This document shows positions 17,643 to 35,231 of a stretch of 35,423 nucleotides of DNA, piece by piece. A program made the translations under genes and the position numbers. Each line of letters opens with the position of its first letter. The stretch's first letter is position 1. The notes beneath the pieces were generated by a model that had not been told where the DNA came from, searched no databases, and was given only the letters and a program-made list of their open reading frames with translations. Source of the DNA: a virus; the IMG/VR virus record IMGVR_UViG_3300023301_000041, positions 1-35,423 of that record; one strand, 5' to 3'.

Positions 17643-20600
17643 TTAATTAGTTTTTGTTCTAATTACATATTCATAATCACTTTCACTTACTTCTTCATCT
17701 AAAAACAAAGCGATATAATATACAGCGTAAGCAAAAGCAGCATAAATATCTTTGTCAACTTTTTTTACTACTTGTACTACGGTATTTTTACCACTTCCAC
17801 CACTTAAGGCAACTAACTTTAGATTAGCTACTTGGTCTATAAACCTTTGTGTTTGTTCGCAAGCTATTTCATTATCTGTTTCTTCTTCTGTGAATCTAGG
17901 TGTGTCTGGTTTTAAATCGTTCCAACTTTTGTATATTCTTAATCTTCTAGACTCTACAACATCTATGAACTTAGTTATTACCTCACTGTTTATTCCTGTT
18001 GATTTAAAAGAATAAACCATTTCTATAGCTTCGTTACCCTCAAATTTTTCATCTGTGTTTATTGTAGAAAATGAGGGATAAATGTCTCCTGTATCTATAT
18101 CTGTAGTATGTTCTAGCAATTTTTCTACCAAACCTTGACCAATAGTATTAGCATCTATGACTACTGCTTTAACTCTTGTAGTGGCTAAATCCCATGTTCC
18201 ACCGTACCTAACAAAGAATTTTTTAACTACTAAAGCTTGTTCTTCATAATTTAAGCCATTACTAGGGGTTTCTATATTTACTAAATCCAAAGTTTCTATC
18301 TTGCCTTTTAAATTTCTTCCTAATCTTAATGCTGCTAAAGCAGTCTGATTATTAGATTCAGAAGCACTTCTAGCAACGTCAACACCAATTACATATTCAT
18401 AAAGCATATTATTGCCTCTTTTGTCTTTGGGTATTTCTAGCTCAAATTTTACTATAGTTCTGCAATTTAATAATTTTGTTATATTTATTAAACTATTTCT
18501 TACACTTCCTACCCATTCACATAAGTAGTTTTGTTTGAAAGCAGTTAATCCTCCCTCTCTAGCTAGATTTACAATGCTAATTTTTTGTCTTCCAAAATAA
18601 ACTGGAAGTCGCCAATCAGAACCTACTAAGAACCCACCTTCGAGGTTAATCATTCTTTGATATACAGATTTTATTATTTCAAATTCATCTGAGTTTTTAT
18701 AACCGCTTGTTGTATATCTGTTTATTTGCCCATTTAATTCTTCTGGGTCTATTAGATTGCCGAGAGTACGTCTTGGAATATTAAATATTGGCAATACGCT
18801 TGATTGTAATACTTCTTTATCAATAATATTACTTTCCTCTAAACCGCCTCTTCTACGTCTTTTACCATTAGATTGTTTTGAGTTTGCTAAAGCATCCATC
18901 CAACTATCATTTACCCACTTTACGTAACCTCTGTCTTTTTGGAAAGAAGCTTCTTTCATCTCATCGGCTAGTGCTGGAAAATATTCTAATAGCTCATCGT
19001 GTTTCTCTTTCCATATACCAACAGCGGATTCCTTTGTGGAAGCTGTTATAGAAAGAGCTATTGCTGGAAAAAATCTAGCTATATGATATTGAGCCATTAT
19101 ATGAAGCATCGTATTATGATTTATAAAACCATTACCAATAAAAGAATTTGTTGAAGGAACATGTATATCATACACCCAATTTGAACTATTCTCTTTGCTA
19201 ACAACTTTGCTATAAAAATAATTTAATTCTAATAATTCTCTCAAATATTCATCATCAATATTATTTAACAAAAAATGTAATTTATCATAATTTAATTCGC
19301 ACCCTTGTGATATTACAGTTTGCATTTTTTGTCTTACTTCTTTACTGATGTCTAAATTTGATATTCTGTCTCTTTGGAAAGGAATTATGTCTATATTAGC
19401 ATTTCCTCTATTTGTTCTTTTAATTGTATTTTCCATCTTCTCTAATTTCTTAATAGAGGTAAAACCTATTTCTTTTGCGAATATATCTATATTTTTACTC
19501 ATAATCCGTATAGTATAGTAACCTATTTTGGTTTTTTTATTCACTTTGTAACCTCTTTTAGAAATTATACCGAAGCACAACAATAACTGTTGCACTTGTT
19601 TAGACATTTTTTCACTATCGGTAGAATAAGAAATAGCATTTCCATCTTCTACTACGCCATCTGCGTCAAATAATCCTCTTAAAAGACTAGAAACATTTTC
19701 TTTATTACTTTTCATAACTATATTAGGAATTTTTCTGTCAGAAGTACTAGAATAGTCTAGTCCCAATTGTTTAAAAAATTCTCTGTTATACATGCCGCTA
19801 ACAAGGCAAGATTTACCTTGTTTAATTACTTTTTTACCAAGTACTTCTTCGAAATACTTTATAACTTTGTTTATTATTTCCTCATCAATATTGGTAAAAT
19901 ATATCTGTTTGTCAGAAGTTAATCCACCTTCTCTTAACAAAACTCCAATTATATAAGATAAATCCTTGTCGAGGGTCTTAGGAATTCCATTTTTAAATTT
20001 CCCTCTAATTACTTGAGATTTTATATTATTAGACAATTTGTCTAAATAAGAATCCATATCCACATTAATATTCACGTCAGAACCAAAAATACCATCTTCC
20101 CTTGAGATACATAAATAATCTCCATTTTCAATATCTTCTGATTTTTTCCACTCTAAATTTCCATTTTTTGACATTACTAGTAATGGATGATTTAGACTAG
20201 GCTCTATATCATACCCGTCATCAGTCTTTAATATGACTGTATCTTTATGGCCAGAAGAGATACCAGCTGTGCTTTTTTCTATACTACCGTATCTATCAAC
20301 TACATTAACATCGTGTATTTTTTCTTCCTCTGTAATTGGTTTAGAATAATTGAAATATTCTCCTATTTCAATTAGTCCTTTATCAGTTCTAATTAAAGTA
20401 TCTCCAGCGACACATTTACCGTATCCCCTTATTACACACATATAGTTCTCTGGGAATCTAACCAAACATCTAAGTGCTACTCTTTGGTCATTATCTAATA
20501 TTAATTTTTTCCCTTCTTTAGGAGTAATTAAGTCATAAGCTATGTCTGGATACCAACGAAGCCAACTAATTAACTCAGCCCATTTGTGTTCATTTTGACT

Positions 20601-20717
20601 ATTTATTAAATCACCAATATCACCTATTATTGGTGTATCAAAATCTGGATTATAAAAATCTGTTCTATTGCTTGAAAATTTTACATTATCTGATTGAAAA
20701 TTATCATAACTACTCAT
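17643..20717 (-). CDS. terL: Large terminase subunit (TerL) containing an intein
   Basis: The frame encodes about 1024 residues from ATG 20717, which overlaps the preceding stop in ATGAGTAG; a GTG at 20729 is the alternative. A 434-residue intein interrupts the Walker A motif: extein RGYGK continues after the intein with TMLHIM, giving RGYGKT. Without the intein the protein is about 590 residues, normal for TerL. The ATPase domain also shows a likely Walker B/catalytic acid segment RRRRGGLEESNIID. The C-terminal RNase H-like nuclease shows YVIGVDVARSASES (first Asp), AVVIDANTIGQGLVEKLLE (second Asp) and DKDIYAAFAYAVYYIALF (third acidic site). TerL drives DNA packaging and cuts concatemers at the portal. 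Activity would require protein splicing. Confidence 0.95.
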   Translation of the reverse strand: MSSYDNFQSDNVKFSSNRTDFYNPDFDTPIIGDIGDLINSQNEHKWAELISWLRWYPDIAYDLITPKEGKKLILDNDQRVALRCLVRFPENYMCVIRGYGKCVAGDTLIRTDKGLIEIGEYFNYSKPITEEEKIHDVNVVDRYGSIEKSTAGISSGHKDTVILKTDDGYDIEPSLNHPLLVMSKNGNLEWKKSEDIENGDYLCISREDGIFGSDVNINVDMDSYLDKLSNNIKSQVIRGKFKNGIPKTLDKDLSYIIGVLLREGGLTSDKQIYFTNIDEEIINKVIKYFEEVLGKKVIKQGKSCLVSGMYNREFFKQLGLDYSSTSDRKIPNIVMKSNKENVSSLLRGLFDADGVVEDGNAISYSTDSEKMSKQVQQLLLCFGIISKRGYKVNKKTKIGYYTIRIMSKNIDIFAKEIGFTSIKKLEKMENTIKRTNRGNANIDIIPFQRDRISNLDISKEVRQKMQTVISQGCELNYDKLHFLLNNIDDEYLRELLELNYFYSKVVSKENSSNWVYDIHVPSTNSFIGNGFINHNTMLHIMAQYHIARFFPAIALSITASTKESAVGIWKEKHDELLEYFPALADEMKEASFQKDRGYVKWVNDSWMDALANSKQSNGKRRRRGGLEESNIIDKEVLQSSVLPIFNIPRRTLGNLIDPEELNGQINRYTTSGYKNSDEFEIIKSVYQRMINLEGGFLVGSDWRLPVYFGRQKISIVNLAREGGLTAFKQNYLCEWVGSVRNSLINITKLLNCRTIVKFELEIPKDKRGNNMLYEYVIGVDVARSASESNNQTALAALRLGRNLKGKIETLDLVNIETPSNGLNYEEQALVVKKFFVRYGGTWDLATTRVKAVVIDANTIGQGLVEKLLEHTTDIDTGDIYPSFSTINTDEKFEGNEAIEMVYSFKSTGINSEVITKFIDVVESRRLRIYKSWNDLKPDTPRFTEEETDNEIACEQTQRFIDQVANLKLVALSGGSGKNTVVQVVKKVDKDIYAAFAYAVYYIALFLDEEVSESDYEYVIRTKTN
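19113..20414 (-). other. Intein with LAGLIDADG homing endonuclease, inserted in the TerL P-loop
   Basis: The in-frame insert starts with Cys (codon at 20412-20414, CVAGDTLIRT, splicing block A) and ends FINHN (last Asn codon 19113-19115) before the +1 Thr. Block B is visible as GHKDTVILKTDDGYDIEP followed by LNHPLLV with its His, and block F as VYDIHVPSTNSFIGNGF. Two LAGLIDADG helices lie inside: LSYIIGVLLREGG (degenerate) and SSLLRGLFDADGVV (well kept). At 434 residues it is a full-size class 1 intein. Insertion between Lys and Thr of GKT destroys the ATP site until splicing restores it. All splice-site residues appear intact; the first LAGLIDADG helix has Glu-Gly where Asp-Gly/Glu-Gly is normal, so nuclease activity is possible. 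Confidence 0.93.
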
Positions 20718-21825
20718 AACCCTCACCACTATCTTCTTCTAACGTAACAACTTCGATATCTTCCCTATTTTCATTTTCTTCTTTTTCTGAATCGTATATA
20801 GGCTCGTAATATCTTTCTCCTAAGTCTTTAAAAACATTATTACGTTTTTTCTTTTCTATTTCTACTTGTTCGGGAGCAAGCCCTTTTTCGTCTCTGAAAT
20901 ATTCTTCTAGAAAATTATCATAAAAACCATATACTTCTGCATAACTCACTTCTGGTTTTTCTTCTAGTCTCCTATTATAATTCGTTAACGCCCATATAAT
21001 CATATCAGCATCATCATAAGGAATAGCTCTTAACTTAGGCATCACAGGAATTAAACTCAATCTTTCTTCCATAGCTTCTGCTAGCTGAGGTATTAAATCT
21101 ATACCACCTGTTATATCGCTTTTGCTTAATTGAGACACATTAATTTTAGCAGAGGTCGCATCTGTCTTAGTCATTCTTGACCACTTTTCAGCTTCTGTCA
21201 CATCTCCGTTAGCTGTAGCTGTTTCTTCTTTTACTTTATGTATAATATAAGTTATTAATCCTTCTGTATGCAGAGAAGTTTTCTCTCTGTACCCAATAGT
21301 TAATTTATTATACTTTCTTTCAAAATTATAATAATCTTCTGCTGGATGACCATAACCATATTTTTCTACTAATTCCACTAAATCAAACTTGTCTGTTTTT
21401 AATTTAGCTATTATTTTTTCATCATCAGATATATCGGCAACTTGTTCACCATCTCTAAAAGTCATTCCTTTGTACTGTCTCATCCCAACATTTTTCATAT
21501 ATAGACCGACCACTACATCGCCATGCTCTTTTAATATATTTTCTTTTACTATACCTTCGTCTTTATAAACCTTGTATGTTTCTTCTATAGAAGAATCAAC
21601 CAACATTGGGATATAAGGTTTGTCTACTACTGTCAAAGTATCTACAAACTTTTTACTATTGAATTCAACACCATCTAAAGAATTTGATATAATACAATCT
21701 TTACATAAATGCGTCCTTCTAAGATTTTTATGTGTTTTACTGTAACTAATATAAAAATCAGTTTTTACACTATAGTCCGTAGCTCCTTTACCACATTGGG
21801 TACAAAAATGAATCTTTTCCGCCAT
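20710..21825 (-). CDS. Candidate small terminase subunit / zinc-finger packaging protein
   Basis: 371 residues starting MAEKIHFCTQCGKGATDYSV, with ATG after AAGGGAGGGATTTATA. An N-terminal zinc ribbon is visible: CTQC near residue 8 and CKDC near residue 41. The rest is charged and mainly helical, with DEKIIAKLKTDKFDLVELVE, a central TEAEKWSRMTKTDATSAKIN segment and a very acidic C-terminus. It overlaps the start of TerL, so the two are translationally coupled, and this is the usual place for the small terminase. It is much longer than typical TerS proteins and I see no clear helix-turn-helix, so TerS is an inference from position; a DNA-binding accessory factor is the alternative. Confidence 0.55.
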   Translation of the reverse strand: MAEKIHFCTQCGKGATDYSVKTDFYISYSKTHKNLRRTHLCKDCIISNSLDGVEFNSKKFVDTLTVVDKPYIPMLVDSSIEETYKVYKDEGIVKENILKEHGDVVVGLYMKNVGMRQYKGMTFRDGEQVADISDDEKIIAKLKTDKFDLVELVEKYGYGHPAEDYYNFERKYNKLTIGYREKTSLHTEGLITYIIHKVKEETATANGDVTEAEKWSRMTKTDATSAKINVSQLSKSDITGGIDLIPQLAEAMEERLSLIPVMPKLRAIPYDDADMIIWALTNYNRRLEEKPEVSYAEVYGFYDNFLEEYFRDEKGLAPEQVEIEKKKRNNVFKDLGERYYEPIYDSEKEENENREDIEVVTLEEDSGEGYE

Positions 21826-26519: not shown

Positions 26520-29393
26520 TTACGGAATTTGTTCATATTTAGTCCTTATTATATCAAAATTTTCTTTCGTGTTTATTGTAGTGGTTTGTTTTACTGTTAT
26601 TGTATCGCTATAGTTCATTATACTCTCGTCAACTACGGTAGTTGATTTAGTTCTTATTATATCATTTATTCCTGTAATGTTGAAAACAAATGAATAATTA
26701 AGAGATTGTCCAATACTTACGATTATTTCAATCGCACTAAACCTACTGGTATAATAGTCAATTAAGTTACTACAATTTTCTACAAAAGCAATGTCTACTA
26801 TGTTGTGTTTCCGTCCTACAACATTTTGATTTGTAATAATATTATTTGTAATTGTTATATTGTTTACATTCTTAAAACCTAATAAATTTTGTTCTATAAA
26901 TAAATCTTCATCAATATACGTATTGATATTTTTCTTATAAGTTAAAGACAGATTAATTGACTCTTCAATAATTATATTCAAAATAGCAGGTAAAATATAG
27001 CTAATATTTATATCTGTTCCGATACTGTTAATAATTGAACTAAATTTATTTATTCTTGTCGTTATATTTTGCGTGATTCTTATTTCTTCTATAACAAAAG
27101 ATTGTTTATTTACAAAATATGTCATTATTTGATTTATTTTTATTGAACTTAAAACATTATCAGAACTAATATGTTTAGTAGTTGATAACGCCATATTTAC
27201 TGTTGCTTCAATATTTACCTCTGCGCCACTGGTGATATTGCAAGTAACATTAATCTCCGTACCAACTGCATTGTTCACAGTGTTAGAACCAACATGTTTA
27301 GTAGCGGTCAATAAAACGTTGTTTGTTTCTGTGATTAAAATATTTGTAGAACCTTCTAAAGAGTATAAAACATTAGTTGTTATTCCAACGCTATTAACTA
27401 CAAAACCTGTTCTGTTAGTTTCTATCTCTACTAAATCGCTAATTGCTGTATCCTCTATTACAGAAGATTGCTTGTTGGCACTGTAACTAACTGATTGGTT
27501 GGTTGTTAATAAATAAACTGCAATATTAGTTTCAATATTTTTCCCTATTGTAATTAATTGTTCTATGCCAATGGGATTAACTATGCTAGTTATAATGTTT
27601 TTTCTTGTTTCTACTAATTGTCCAATACTCACTACATTAATTACATCTGATTTCGCATTCTTTTCTGATTCTAAAAACTGTGTAATTCCCAATGTAATTG
27701 TTACATTAACTTCATCTATACTTGAATTTTCTAATAATTGTTCAATTCCGATAGAATTAGTTATATCAGCAGAAATCCCTTTTTTTGCCACAACATTGTT
27801 ACTTATTCCGAGTGAACTCACTGTACTTGATTTACTATTTTTTTCTACGTCTAATAACTGTTCAATTCCAACTGAATTTATCATAGTTGAACTAGTATTT
27901 CTTTTTGCTTCAAGTAATTGTTCAATGCTTGTTGAATTGATTACATTAAAAACACTATTCTTTTTAATAGTCAATAAAACGTTGTTTGTTTCTGTGATTA
28001 AAACATCCGCAGAACCTTCTACAGAGTGCAAAACATTAGTTGTTATTCCAACGCTATTAGATACAAAACCTGTTCTACCAGTCTTTATCTCTACTATATC
28101 CTCTATCTTTAAACTGTTTATAATATAAGCTTGTTTAATAACGGAATAATTAACTGATTGGCTTATTACTAAAGAACCCATTAAAATATTGCTATTAATT
28201 CCTTTATTAGATTCTATTAATTGTTCAATTCCAATTGAATTTATTACACTTGAATTGATATTCCTTTTTGTCGTAAGTAGTTGTTCAATTCCAATTGAAT
28301 TCACTGTATTTATTTTACTATTTTTTTCTACATCTATTAATTGTTCAATTCCAATTGAATTTATTACACTTGAATTGATATTCTTTTCTACATCTAATAA
28401 TTGCCCAATTCTGAGTGAACTTACTATATTTAATTGCGCATTCTTTTCTACATCTAATAACTGTCTAATCTCGACTGAGTTTATCACGCTTGAGATAGCA
28501 TTTATTTTTGTATCGAGTGATTGCCCAACTCTTACAGATTCTATCAGAATAGTGCTATTAATTCCCTTATTAGATTCTAATAATTGACTAATATTTACTG
28601 AATTGGCTATATTCAAACCAACATTTCTTTTTGCTGTAAATGATTGATTAATATTTACTGAATTGGTTATATTTGTTTTACTATTTCTTTTTGTTGTAAG
28701 CAACTGATTAATTCCAATTGAATTAACTATATTTGAGTTAACATTTCTTTTTGCTGTAAATGATTGATTAATTCCAATTGAATTAACTATGTTTGAATTA
28801 ACATTTCTTTTTGCTGTAAATGATTGTCCGATTCCAATTGAATTGGTTATATTTAAGTTGCTATTAATTCCTTTATTGAGTTCTAATAACTGCCCAATTC
28901 CAATTGAATTGGTTATGTTTGTTTTACTATTTCTTTTTACTGTAAGCAACTGGTTAATCCCAATTGAATTAACTATGTTTGAGTTAACATTTCTTTTTGC
29001 TGTAAGCAACTGATTAATGTTTAGTGAATTGGTTATGTTTGTTTTACTATTTCTTTTTACTGTAAATGATTGATTAATCCCAATTGAATTAACTATGTTT
29101 GAGTTAACATTTCTTTTTACCGTAAGTGACTGATTGATAGGTTCGCTTACTATTATATTTTTAGCAATAGATTTTATACCAGCTTGTTTTAATCCTAATT
29201 GTCCAAGTGTATATGAATCTAAGTATCCTAGTGTTTTGTTATCTAAAACGGATAGAATATTAAAAAATCCAACTTCGACTCCATTAGATATATCAATATG
29301 AACTTCAACTGTTATACCTAAATCTAATTCTGCAAGTGTATTTAAATCTAAAAAATTTGATGTTTTATTGTCATAGGGGGATAAAGTAATCAT
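26520..29393 (-). CDS. Large repeat protein, putative tail fibre or adhesin
   Basis: 957 residues from ATG 29393 after AAAAGGGGGATG. The first 70 residues hold two copies of DNKT..x(F/Y)LD..TL..L.L. From about residue 75 the protein is a run of 20-21-residue units with consensus (V/S)NSNIVNSIGINQLLTxKRN, at least 25 before they become degenerate toward residue 900. Each unit has two beta strands split by a Gly or Asn turn, which suggests a beta-solenoid or stacked hairpin fibre. A block of about 35 residues with TGFVSNSVGITTNVLHS and LITETNNVLLT appears twice. The C-terminal 60 residues (ending TTINTKENFDIIRTKYEQIP) are distinct. No catalytic motif. Gene neighbours are two probable virion proteins. 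Host-recognition fibre is inferred. Confidence 0.7.
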   Translation of the reverse strand: MITLSPYDNKTSNFLDLNTLAELDLGITVEVHIDISNGVEVGFFNILSVLDNKTLGYLDSYTLGQLGLKQAGIKSIAKNIIVSEPINQSLTVKRNVNSNIVNSIGINQSFTVKRNSKTNITNSLNINQLLTAKRNVNSNIVNSIGINQLLTVKRNSKTNITNSIGIGQLLELNKGINSNLNITNSIGIGQSFTAKRNVNSNIVNSIGINQSFTAKRNVNSNIVNSIGINQLLTTKRNSKTNITNSVNINQSFTAKRNVGLNIANSVNISQLLESNKGINSTILIESVRVGQSLDTKINAISSVINSVEIRQLLDVEKNAQLNIVSSLRIGQLLDVEKNINSSVINSIGIEQLIDVEKNSKINTVNSIGIEQLLTTKRNINSSVINSIGIEQLIESNKGINSNILMGSLVISQSVNYSVIKQAYIINSLKIEDIVEIKTGRTGFVSNSVGITTNVLHSVEGSADVLITETNNVLLTIKKNSVFNVINSTSIEQLLEAKRNTSSTMINSVGIEQLLDVEKNSKSSTVSSLGISNNVVAKKGISADITNSIGIEQLLENSSIDEVNVTITLGITQFLESEKNAKSDVINVVSIGQLVETRKNIITSIVNPIGIEQLITIGKNIETNIAVYLLTTNQSVSYSANKQSSVIEDTAISDLVEIETNRTGFVVNSVGITTNVLYSLEGSTNILITETNNVLLTATKHVGSNTVNNAVGTEINVTCNITSGAEVNIEATVNMALSTTKHISSDNVLSSIKINQIMTYFVNKQSFVIEEIRITQNITTRINKFSSIINSIGTDINISYILPAILNIIIEESINLSLTYKKNINTYIDEDLFIEQNLLGFKNVNNITITNNIITNQNVVGRKHNIVDIAFVENCSNLIDYYTSRFSAIEIIVSIGQSLNYSFVFNITGINDIIRTKSTTVVDESIMNYSDTITVKQTTTINTKENFDIIRTKYEQIP
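28130..29130. repeat. 60-bp tandem repeat array inside the repeat-protein gene
   Basis: Within the gene the DNA repeats every 60 bp, with close copies of AATTGAATTAACTATGTTTG and ACATTTCTTTTTGCTGTAA recurring along the array. Two unit types (encoding VNSNIVNS and SKTNITNS) partly alternate, giving a 120-bp higher-order period between about 28660 and 29130, where copies are most alike. Similarity decays toward lower coordinates, as expected for an array that grows and shrinks by recombination at one end. Confidence 0.85.
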
Positions 29394-33717: not shown

Positions 33718-33954
33718 TTACTCATAGTCATTGCCCATTTCTAAACTATTCCAAAGGCATTCAAAACATACTGCTTCGCTCTCATCAGAATAGTCACATT
33801 CAAAATAATCATCAAAACAATCATCACCAAAGCAATCATCTCCTCCAAAGCCATCATCTCCCGCAGAAAAGTCATCCGAAAAATTAGTAGTATCTTCACA
33901 AAATCCAATCTCAAATTCTTCTCCACAATAAATACAGGTTACTATTTTAGCCAT
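33718..33954 (-). CDS. Small zinc-ribbon-like protein with an acidic DD-C-F insert
   Basis: 78 residues, ATG after AAGGAGGAATAATA. CIYC near residue 7 and CFEC near residue 63 look like the two halves of one zinc ribbon. Between them lies a low-complexity acidic insert with repeats of GGDDCF, GDDCF and DDYFECDY carrying further cysteines. A metal- or nucleic-acid-binding role is likely but unspecified. It is separated by two nucleotides from the zinc-ribbon gene upstream. Confidence 0.6.
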   Translation of the reverse strand: MAKIVTCIYCGEEFEIGFCEDTTNFSDDFSAGDDGFGGDDCFGDDCFDDYFECDYSDESEAVCFECLWNSLEMGNDYE

Positions 33955-33956
33955 TA

Positions 33957-34142
33957 TTATTCCTCCTTTTTCAGAACGATGTGTCCTGCACTTTGTTTTT
34001 TAATCACTTCCGTGTAACAATTTTTGCATATTATCGTATGGTATTCCGTAACATCTTTCGCAACTCTACCTATTTGCTCTAACTGTTCATTTTCTAATTT
34101 AAATTCTGCACCACATCTTCTACAAACTATCATGAAATCCAT
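33957..34142 (-). CDS. Small zinc-ribbon protein
   Basis: 61 residues: MDFMIVCRRCGAEFKLENEQ, then CKNCYTEVIKKQ. Two CxxC pairs spaced about 30 residues apart form a single zinc ribbon. ATG follows AAAGGAGGAATAATA. The start of the gene resembles that of its neighbour at 33954, and both share the leader AGGAGGAATAATAATGG, which hints at duplication of the leader. Role unknown; likely nucleic-acid binding or adaptor. Confidence 0.65.
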   Translation of the reverse strand: MDFMIVCRRCGAEFKLENEQLEQIGRVAKDVTEYHTIICKNCYTEVIKKQSAGHIVLKKEE

Positions 34143-34144
34143 TA

Positions 34145-34204
34145 TTATTCCTCCTTTGATTCATAATCTTCACATTCATCCCAAAAACTATCATACTTAT
34201 TCAT
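34145..34204 (-). CDS. Possible 19-residue micro-ORF
   Basis: ATG at 34204 overlaps the end of the 49-residue gene and encodes MNKYDSFWDECEDYESKEE, stopping inside AAGGAGGAATAATAATG of the next gene. The residues are acidic and the stop/start arrangement is compact, but there is no strong ribosome site, so it may be a chance frame. Confidence 0.25.
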   Translation of the reverse strand: MNKYDSFWDECEDYESKEE

Positions 34205-34346
34205 CCATCTCAGCTATCATAATGTCAATTTCCACTAGTATTTCCTGTATTTTCTGGTGCATCTCTCTGTACTCTGGTACTGTAGGATATGGGATATCTC
34301 TAAGCCATACAAATTTTCTTAGCTCCTCAAGTTTTTCTTTACTCAT
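34197..34346 (-). CDS. Small helical protein (49 residues), unknown
   Basis: ATG at 34346 overlaps the stop of the second Cys-repeat gene (TAATG) and is preceded by GCGAGGGTGAAT. The product starts MSKEKLEELRKFVWLRDIPY, continues PTVPEYREMHQKIQEILVEI and ends IMIAEMDE. It is charged and helical. The coupled start and shared leader with the Cys-repeat genes support real expression. No family recognised. Confidence 0.55.
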   Translation of the reverse strand: MSKEKLEELRKFVWLRDIPYPTVPEYREMHQKIQEILVEIDIMIAEMDE

Positions 34347-34660
34347 TATTCACCCTCGCTTTTCTTTTCAACAATATCATATAAACCTGTACAATCTGTC
34401 CAACTTCTAAATTCTAGGCAACTTTCACAACCTACACAGCCTATACAATCTATACAATTTTTGCAATGTCCACAATCTGTACAGTCTGTACAATTTGTAC
34501 AATCTCTGCAAAATATACAATTAAAGCAATCTATGCAATTCATGCACTTTGTGCAATTCACCAATGATTTAGAATTCAGTACTGCTTGCTTTTTTGTACA
34601 ATATTTTGAATCCCAAAAATTCTTATCTTTATCCATCCAACAATCATTTACCTTTTTCAT
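34346..34660 (-). CDS. Cys-every-third-residue repeat protein, copy B
   Basis: About 104 residues. Of two adjacent ATGs I prefer 34660, seven bases after GAGG, overlapping the stop of copy A. A 36-residue head (CWMDKDKNFWDSKYCTKKQA) is followed by 16 cysteines at exact three-residue spacing, with units such as CIDCFNCIFCRDCTNCTDC, mostly (N/D)-Cys. The end is TDCTGLYDIVEKKSEGE. No known domain is recognised. Strict period-three cysteines fit a metal-binding or disulfide-laddered rod, or one face of a left-handed beta-helix. It is a tandem paralog of the gene upstream. Confidence 0.75.
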   Translation of the reverse strand: MKKVNDCWMDKDKNFWDSKYCTKKQAVLNSKSLVNCTKCMNCIDCFNCIFCRDCTNCTDCTDCGHCKNCIDCIGCVGCESCLEFRSWTDCTGLYDIVEKKSEGE

Positions 34661-34884
34661 CATTCACCCTCGCTTTCTTGTCTATGCTGATGTATACAGG
34701 CTGTGCAATATGTGCAATTTTTGCAATTTATGCAATTTGTGCAATCTTCGCAATCTATGCAATCTATGCAATATTTACAATCTACAAGCGTCTCGGAATA
34801 CTTTATTGACTGTTCTTTTGTATATTTCTTTGCATTCCATGAATTGTCGCTTTCATCTATCCAGTGACCATATTCTTTAAACAT
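34660..34884 (-). CDS. Cys-every-third-residue repeat protein, copy A
   Basis: About 74 residues. ATG at 34884 follows GAGGAAGAATAAA; an upstream TTG at 34926 would add 14 residues homologous to the C-terminus of copy B and is less likely. The head (HWIDESDNSWNAKKYTKEQS) matches copy B (W.D....W..K.YTK.Q), then ten cysteines occur at exact three-residue spacing (DCKYCIDCIDCEDCTNC and so on). It ends HQHRQESEGE, sharing SEGE with copy B. Function unknown. It lies just downstream of the deoxyribosyltransferase-like gene. Confidence 0.72.
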   Translation of the reverse strand: MFKEYGHWIDESDNSWNAKKYTKEQSIKYSETLVDCKYCIDCIDCEDCTNCINCKNCTYCTACIHQHRQESEGE

Positions 34885-34922
34885 TTTATTCTTCCTCGCT
34901 TTCTTTTCAACAATATCTAGGG
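34885..34922 (-). pseudogene. Remnant of a third Cys-repeat gene
   Basis: Upstream of copy A, bases 34885-34915 encode DIVEKKARKNK and match at the DNA level the C-terminal end of copy B (shared CTTTTCAACAATATC on the plus strand, followed by the shared TCGCTTTC and ribosome-site region). This looks like the tail of an earlier or donor copy left after tandem duplication or deletion. It is too short to be a gene. Confidence 0.5.
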
Positions 34923-35231
34923 TCAAACTCTAGGAACTAAATATTCTATCTTTTTGCCCTTAGATTGTGCATACTGTATCTCTGATAAAGTACTCACTCC
35001 CACATAGCCACCCACGTTAATAACAAAGATACTGTCTGATAAGTCAATCTTATACTTGTGCATTTCATCTAACATTTCTTTAACTCCAAGTTCCCATACT
35101 TCATCATCCCCCGAATGTCCAAACAAACCAACCGTGTAGACCACGTTCCCTTCAAGCGTTAATCTCTTTTGTTCCTCTAAAAACTGTTTTTTAAACTTAC
35201 TGCTTCCACACAATGTTACTGATTTAAACAT
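34923..35231 (-). CDS. Nucleoside deoxyribosyltransferase-like protein (DUF4406 type)
   Basis: 102 residues, ATG 35231 after GAAGGGGGAGTAAA. It starts FKSVTLCGSSKFKKQFLEEQ, a nucleotide-binding strand-loop-helix with CGS, and ends DSIFVINVGGYVGVSTLSEI followed by QYAQSKGKKIEYL. The pattern IxGSxxF...D.I.VIN.GGY.G.ST..EI.YA...GK.I.YL is typical of small nucleoside 2-deoxyribosyltransferase-like proteins, which are frequent in phages and may act on modified nucleotides or salvage. The catalytic Glu is plausibly in SEIQYA. Its partners are unknown. Confidence 0.78.
   Translation of the reverse strand: MFKSVTLCGSSKFKKQFLEEQKRLTLEGNVVYTVGLFGHSGDDEVWELGVKEMLDEMHKYKIDLSDSIFVINVGGYVGVSTLSEIQYAQSKGKKIEYLVPRV

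Follow-up and report, generated by a model that had tools for sequence, protein, structure and literature searches.

Tandem phage genes with a cysteine at every third residue: members of a widespread family and possible thiol-core solenoids

Introduction

Two adjacent genes in a virus record of 35,423 bases, the whole of which was analysed and is here called the window, encode proteins in which a cysteine recurs at every third residue. This locus raises the question of whether such proteins are made, to which family they belong and what use a phage could have for an array of this kind. The class is strikingly regular and very common in phages, with arrays in which a single triplet recurs as many as 85 times, many paralogues per phage, and several unrelated heads and tails. 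The explanation favoured here, to which a probability of roughly 0.4 is given as a whole, combines family membership, a fold with inward-facing cysteines and a chemical use of the thiols.

The tandem gene pair and its translation

Two overlapping open frames are present on the minus strand, both starting with a head and continuing into unbroken triplets of the form xxC. The first of the pair, ORF B (34660 to 34884, minus strand), has an ATG start and encodes 74 amino acids: the head MFKEYGHWIDESDNSWNAKKYTKEQSIKYSETL (34786 to 34884), delimited by alignment and containing W-x-D-x3-N-x-W and then a predicted helix, followed by an array of ten consecutive triplets, VDC to TAC, encoded by a 9 bp repeat (34696 to 34785). 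The second, ORF A (34346 to 34663, minus strand), encodes 105 amino acids, with a head also delimited by alignment (34562 to 34663) and 16 unbroken triplets, VNC to ESC (34418 to 34561). On sequence and pattern analysis, the array of ORF A continues in phase into LEF-RSW-TDC (34391 to 34417), where Phe and Trp occupy two of the cysteine positions. The 33-residue head is common to both proteins and is paralogous (45 % identity, E=1.4e-12). With the frames open and the heads related, the initial annotation of adjacent paralogues carrying 10 and 16 cysteines in unbroken three-residue steps is borne out; its extension of the pair to 34922 is not, since the first gene starts with the ATG at 34884. 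The window has two matches to a pattern of five successive [D/N]C triplets, against none in 100 dinucleotide shuffles. By inspection, neither ORF A nor ORF B has a hydrophobic N-terminal stretch of the signal peptide type.

Translation of both genes, on which the earlier reading had been made to depend, is well supported by sequence features of several kinds. An SD-like GAGG(G/A) precedes ORF B, ORF A and the next gene, the ATG of ORF B being preceded by GAGGAAG. Stop and start codons overlap along three successive genes (TGATG, TAATG), including the ORF A start, which overlaps the ORF B stop in TGATG, and the SEGE tail of the protein is the coding reading of the ribosome-binding-site-like sequence of the next gene. 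The T and G of the cysteine codon are invariant in 26 out of 26 repeat units across both arrays, the third base is T or C, and the remaining variation is mostly in the two codons preceding the cysteine codon. Among ten Campylobacter-phage homologues, the head has a pN/pS of 0.33 in frame versus 1.10 and 0.96 in the shifted frames, and these heads are under purifying selection in this frame only. It could be argued that the pair is untranslated repeat DNA, as tandem 9 bp repeats do open several frames. This is extremely improbable, because TG is invariant while the wobble base varies and the heads are under in-frame selection; the ribosome-binding sites, the overlapping starts and the conservation of heads between unrelated phages likewise stand against it.

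Repeats at the gene junctions

Direct repeats of 18 to 30 nt mark the gene junctions, all given here on the minus strand. They are located upstream of ORF B (34873 to 34917, repeats D2 and D6), between ORF B and ORF A (34647 to 34676, repeat D2, which codes for the SEGE tail and contains the next gene's ribosome-binding site) and at the 3′ end of ORF A (34333 to 34378, repeats D2 and D6). Because 18 nt from the 3′ end of ORF A (34361 to 34378) are repeated exactly upstream of ORF B, a third copy may formerly have been present there, of which this repeat is the probable remnant; the stretch from 34888 to 34926, which overlaps the repeat, accordingly looks like what is left of the 3′ part of another copy. 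The arrangement suggests that whole genes can be gained or lost through recombination between junctions. A 30 nt stretch at 34178 to 34207 has 80 % identity to the ORF A head-coding DNA (WMDKDKNFWD) and is possibly a decayed third head, or due to chance.

Family membership and distribution

Both proteins match PHROG 15341 across head and array (ORF A, E=8.6e-18; ORF B, E=3.6e-17), a family annotated as 'unknown function'. The earlier statement that no characterised family has this pattern is correct as to function, which is uncharacterised, but the genes themselves are catalogued in this widespread PHROG. Annotated phage relatives are found in Campylobacter Firehammerviruses and one Helicobacter prophage. 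The Firehammervirus proteins of PHROG 15341 have the same head (GYYVDSNNNKW..YTEEQA..S.SLVNC) and an xxC array (profile E=1e-17 to 1e-18). They differ from the window genes in array length, with up to 76 cysteines versus 10 and 16, and in host, which is Campylobacter for these phages and probably a member of the Bacillota for the window. UniProt gives one member the name 'Caib/baif family protein', and another carries the note 'cysteine rich' in phage F379. There is no match to either ORF in Pfam or NCBIfam at E<=1, and thus none to a zinc-ribbon or metallothionein family, homology to which had been named as evidence against the initial annotation. An account of xxC phage proteins as a class was not found in the literature, and the Campylobacter phage literature examined does not mention cysteine. 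Judged by sequence, the pair adds new and short members to a class that is catalogued but has not been described.

The wider search for (xxC)n proteins that had been proposed was productive. A scan of IMG/VR for DNA encoding five successive [D/N]C triplets matched at least 119 stretches, with convincing ORFs on at least about 75 IMG/VR contigs. Among the matches listed, xxC genes are present on more than 70 phage contigs, with arrays of up to 85 cysteines, and up to 15 profile matches are found per phage record. The xxC ORFs fall into several types by head, and no fewer than two C-terminal domains recur among them (phrog_31265; phrog_20532/7964).

Individual loci differ in the number of genes and in what is joined to the array. 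Three phage contigs, one of them of 127 kb, have 14 to 15 xxC-profile matches each and carry many paralogues with related C-terminal tails (RPELDINNRRLEIEL). At five loci a C-terminal WHTCxTTHCRAGWVxxLAG domain (phrog_31265) is fused to xxC arrays, and at one other a domain resembling it is N-terminal. The second C-terminal domain, GSRxxQTxxYWxxxxQVVCGCFxGxLxEFE (phrog_20532/7964), is found at six loci; AF2 gives it a confident fold (pLDDT 78 to 93), with no match in the PDB. Four tandem xxC genes with another head (MRYxSxxSxKGNxSxSxxSQxEAD) are present at a single locus. The Campylobacter fetus plasmid pCfviMP1 has at least two xxC genes with heads of related type. At a bacterial-genome locus, an xxC array with a fused N-terminal domain adjoins a BrxL-like ATPase piece and a GNAT gene.

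In the bacterial genome collection, the pattern scan was swamped with low-complexity spurious frames and the head profile was used instead. This profile was found in 8 out of 397 Campylobacteria genomes (the class of a Helicobacteraceae contig) and in 0 out of 391 Clostridia genomes (the class of a Lachnospiraceae contig), a distribution consistent with a mobile-element gene. Some of the bacterial loci matching the head profile adjoin ordinary chromosomal genes. Among 137 phage proteins flanking xxC genes, the neighbours are of the early DNA-metabolism and accessory kinds, with Erf annealing protein, Gp157, DnaB, ligase, Gam, and helicases; two match phosphoadenosine phosphosulfate reductase families.

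Variation in array length

Comparison of repeat number in relatives shows that the array expands and contracts, as had been suggested, with 12 to 76 cysteines at one syntenic Campylobacter-phage locus. Between the genes for portal and DNA ligase, the number of cysteines is 12 in CP20, 27 in CP220, 46 in F379, 49 in IBB_35, 63 in WX1, and 67 in CC_R7, while CP21 has two genes here, of 47 and 76. In CP20, CJLB-12, and CJLB-14 the arrays are cut by stops or frameshifts. Array length is not quantised in multiples of four triplets, and the DNA duplications have no preferred unit, including 36 bp (four triplets).

Composition of the array

Spacing between cysteines is exactly three residues in 2470 of about 2600 cases (approximately 95 %; 103 ORFs). 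Substitutions were analysed in 135 non-redundant arrays, containing 3666 triplets and 10,998 residues. Cys occupies 97 % of their third positions. The 115 non-Cys third positions out of 3666 are S (45), L (19), G (13), F (10), R (5), Y (4), and a few others; charged or amide residues account for 11 of these 115, versus 35 % at the first position and 69 % at the second. Because the phase survives loss of the cysteine, with small or hydrophobic substitutes, the pattern suggests that the third position behaves as a buried core, unlike a free metal ligand. The initial annotation had the cysteines on one face of a rod; in-phase substitutes that are mostly Ser, Leu, Gly, and Phe fit core placement better than an exposed face. 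The second position is D in 36 %, N in 25 %, and G in 11 %, residues that tolerate tight turns. Proline is nearly absent (5 out of 10,998 array residues), which makes a polyproline or collagen-like rod unlikely; of the polyproline-like or beta-helical rod previously suggested, the beta-helical form fits better.

These substitutions also bear on a flexible metallothionein-like binder, in which the array would be disordered until metal-bound and the CxxC spacing would be a dense series of ligands. The very high cysteine content is what such a protein would have, and CXXC zinc finger profiles do match weakly. It is nevertheless unlikely, as missing cysteines are replaced in phase by Ser, Leu, Gly, or Phe and almost never by His or Asp, and no metal-binding family is matched in Pfam or NCBIfam. 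Metallothioneins and CXXC zinc fingers share dense CxxC motifs with the xxC arrays, which are set apart by the perfect period of three, the core-like substitutions and the lack of a family match. Likewise, the CxxCxxC spacing is that of the ferredoxin motif, and PsaC matches one relative weakly, so that an iron-sulfur protein holding ferredoxin-like clusters could be envisaged; the remote fourth ligand, the CP motif and Pro are absent and the matches are compositional, making this highly improbable.

Predicted fold and similarity to known repeat proteins

ORF A and one homologue were modelled with AF2. In these models the head is made up of hairpin strands and a helix (pLDDT about 67 to 87; 82 to 87 for ORF A), and both arrays are modelled as a solenoid with a bridge residue at each third position, with low block pLDDT (about 45 to 69; about 57 to 69 for ORF A); AF2 is known to over-predict beta-solenoids on repeat sequences (PMC11795689). 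The homologue carries a tail domain and has an array like that of ORF A. Foldseek searches of the PDB gave no significant match for either AF2 model, the first entry being 1EZG (E=5.7; TM 0.18 to 0.22, no superposition). When PDB sequences are compared with the family profile, the same entry again ranks first, in triplet register, but composition inflates its score (E=0.0023; bias 29 bits). In BFVD, the AF2 model matches a Campylobacter 'Caib/baif family protein' and the Mimiviridae 'TNFR-Cys' protein A0A5B8IEK9 (E=1.5e-3); this last match hints at such arrays in eukaryotic giant viruses.

The 1EZG structure is the beetle antifreeze protein TmAFP, a right-handed beta-helix which has four triplets per 12-residue turn, TCTxSxNCxxAx, with side chains placed out-in-out-out-in (PMC8038014). 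TmAFP and the xxC arrays have in common richness in Cys and Asn before Cys; an inward side chain at the third residue and a variable number of turns, as in TmAFP, are predicted for the arrays. TmAFP differs in its disulfide-bonded Cys-Ser-Cys-Ala core, its secretion and its use of TCT to bind ice, and is taken here as a structural precedent, not as a homologue. Its consensus is absent from ORF A and ORF B. Across the family, 12-residue periodicity is weak: triplet autocorrelation peaks at lag 4, equal to 12 residues (z=5.4 for all arrays, 4.1 for diverse arrays), a small signal that is weak or absent in chemical-class correlations.

Pentapeptide-repeat proteins are also solenoids, as predicted for the arrays, with Asp or Asn just before the core residue and variable length. 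They differ in their five-residue period and Leu/Phe core, and the five-residue A(D/N)LXX repeat was not found in the arrays, where period 3 holds in about 95 % of Cys spacings and Pfam gives no match. Taking the substitutions and models together, the array is probably a solenoid with its cysteines facing inward.

Possible roles of the cysteines

Both genes are translated and belong to PHROG 15341, a large family of phages and now and then of plasmids, whose proteins consist of a small head capping (x-[D/N/G]-C) triplets in an array. In the thiol-core solenoid proposed here, the array would form a very tight beta-solenoid, each triplet making one short side and placing its third residue into a core of stacked cysteine thiols. 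Arrays lengthen and shorten in 9 bp steps, which would alter the length of the rod and leave the frame intact. The thiols may then be used chemically, most likely as ligands for soft metal ions in the interior of the rod or as a thiol or redox sink in the infected cell, since Cys is kept at 97 % even though Ser, Leu, Gly, and Phe fit the core. A metal or thiol role, which we infer tentatively, is our first choice of function.

The same fold could instead serve as a binding rod, with Cys as a small core filler and variable outer residues that bind a host protein or mimic DNA, for takeover or anti-defence. Pentapeptide-repeat proteins bind host proteins and mimic DNA. The outer residues of the arrays are free to vary, 83 % of arrays are net acidic, the genes have an early accessory-gene setting that includes a single ArdA and a single Thoeris inhibitor Tad4, and the large paralogue sets per phage resemble diversifying binders. 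However, retention of Cys at 97 % would not be expected where other small or hydrophobic residues fit, the acidic charge is not uniform, and ArdA and Tad4 were each found once among 137 neighbours. This role is therefore a less likely one, to be kept in mind.

A further comparison is with the heterocycloanthracin precursors (TIGR03601; Haft 2009), of which BA_2677 has Cys-Xaa-Xaa repeats with tripeptide indels (PMC2674419). The window genes resemble these precursors in having a small head, such repeats and such indels, and could by this analogy be precursors of a RiPP, the head acting as leader and the cysteines being converted to thiazoles, possibly by a host enzyme in trans. The heterocycloanthracin precursors differ in being Gly-rich (CGG) and chromosomal in Bacillus, with another leader and the need for a cyclodehydratase. 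This bacteriocin-precursor reading is weak because no YcaO enzyme accompanies the genes: YcaO was found in 0 out of 30 phage or plasmid records with xxC genes, complete phage genomes included, while the same search was positive in 5 out of 14 control genomes. Radical SAM proteins were found only in six Campylobacter phage records and one other contig, and their abundance in Campylobacter phages was already known (PMC2853527). There is no match to a precursor family in NCBIfam at E<=1, and neither arrays of up to 85 cysteines nor C-terminal fusions are typical of precursors. A RiPP origin is thus very unlikely.

If the thiol-core solenoid is correct, it would be a new minimal repeat fold, with a length tunable in 9 bp steps, and would raise the question of why phages make so many intracellular thiols, whether for metal, redox, defence, or host-protein binding. 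A bolder form of it, unlikely at present, is an all-thiol-core beta-solenoid of an unsolved fold class, in which the stacked cysteines of a cytoplasmic phage protein bind an unbroken row of soft metal ions or clusters, its capacity set by the number of 9 bp units.

Other features of the record

The phage is SPbeta-like. Tape measure, Dit, portal, and exonuclease are recognisable in the record, and the portal protein has 35 % identity to that of the SPbeta-like Bacillus phages SPR and SPbetaL2/L3. The pair is upstream of small zinc-ribbon-like genes. Directly downstream of it on the minus strand, 33718 to 33954 and 33957 to 34142 hold an acidic Cys-containing ORF (DDGFGGDDCFGDDCFDDYFECDYSDESE) and a zinc-ribbon-like ORF. 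A terminase-like large protein (17643 to 20729, minus strand) has an apparent intein inside it (CVAGDTLIRTDKG...FINHN), with profile matches that are helicase/endonuclease-like. Adjoining the structural genes, 26520 to 29393 (minus strand) encodes a 957-amino-acid protein of approximately 20-residue repeats (NSIGINQLLTVKRN), the DNA of which has periodicities of 60 and 120 bp.
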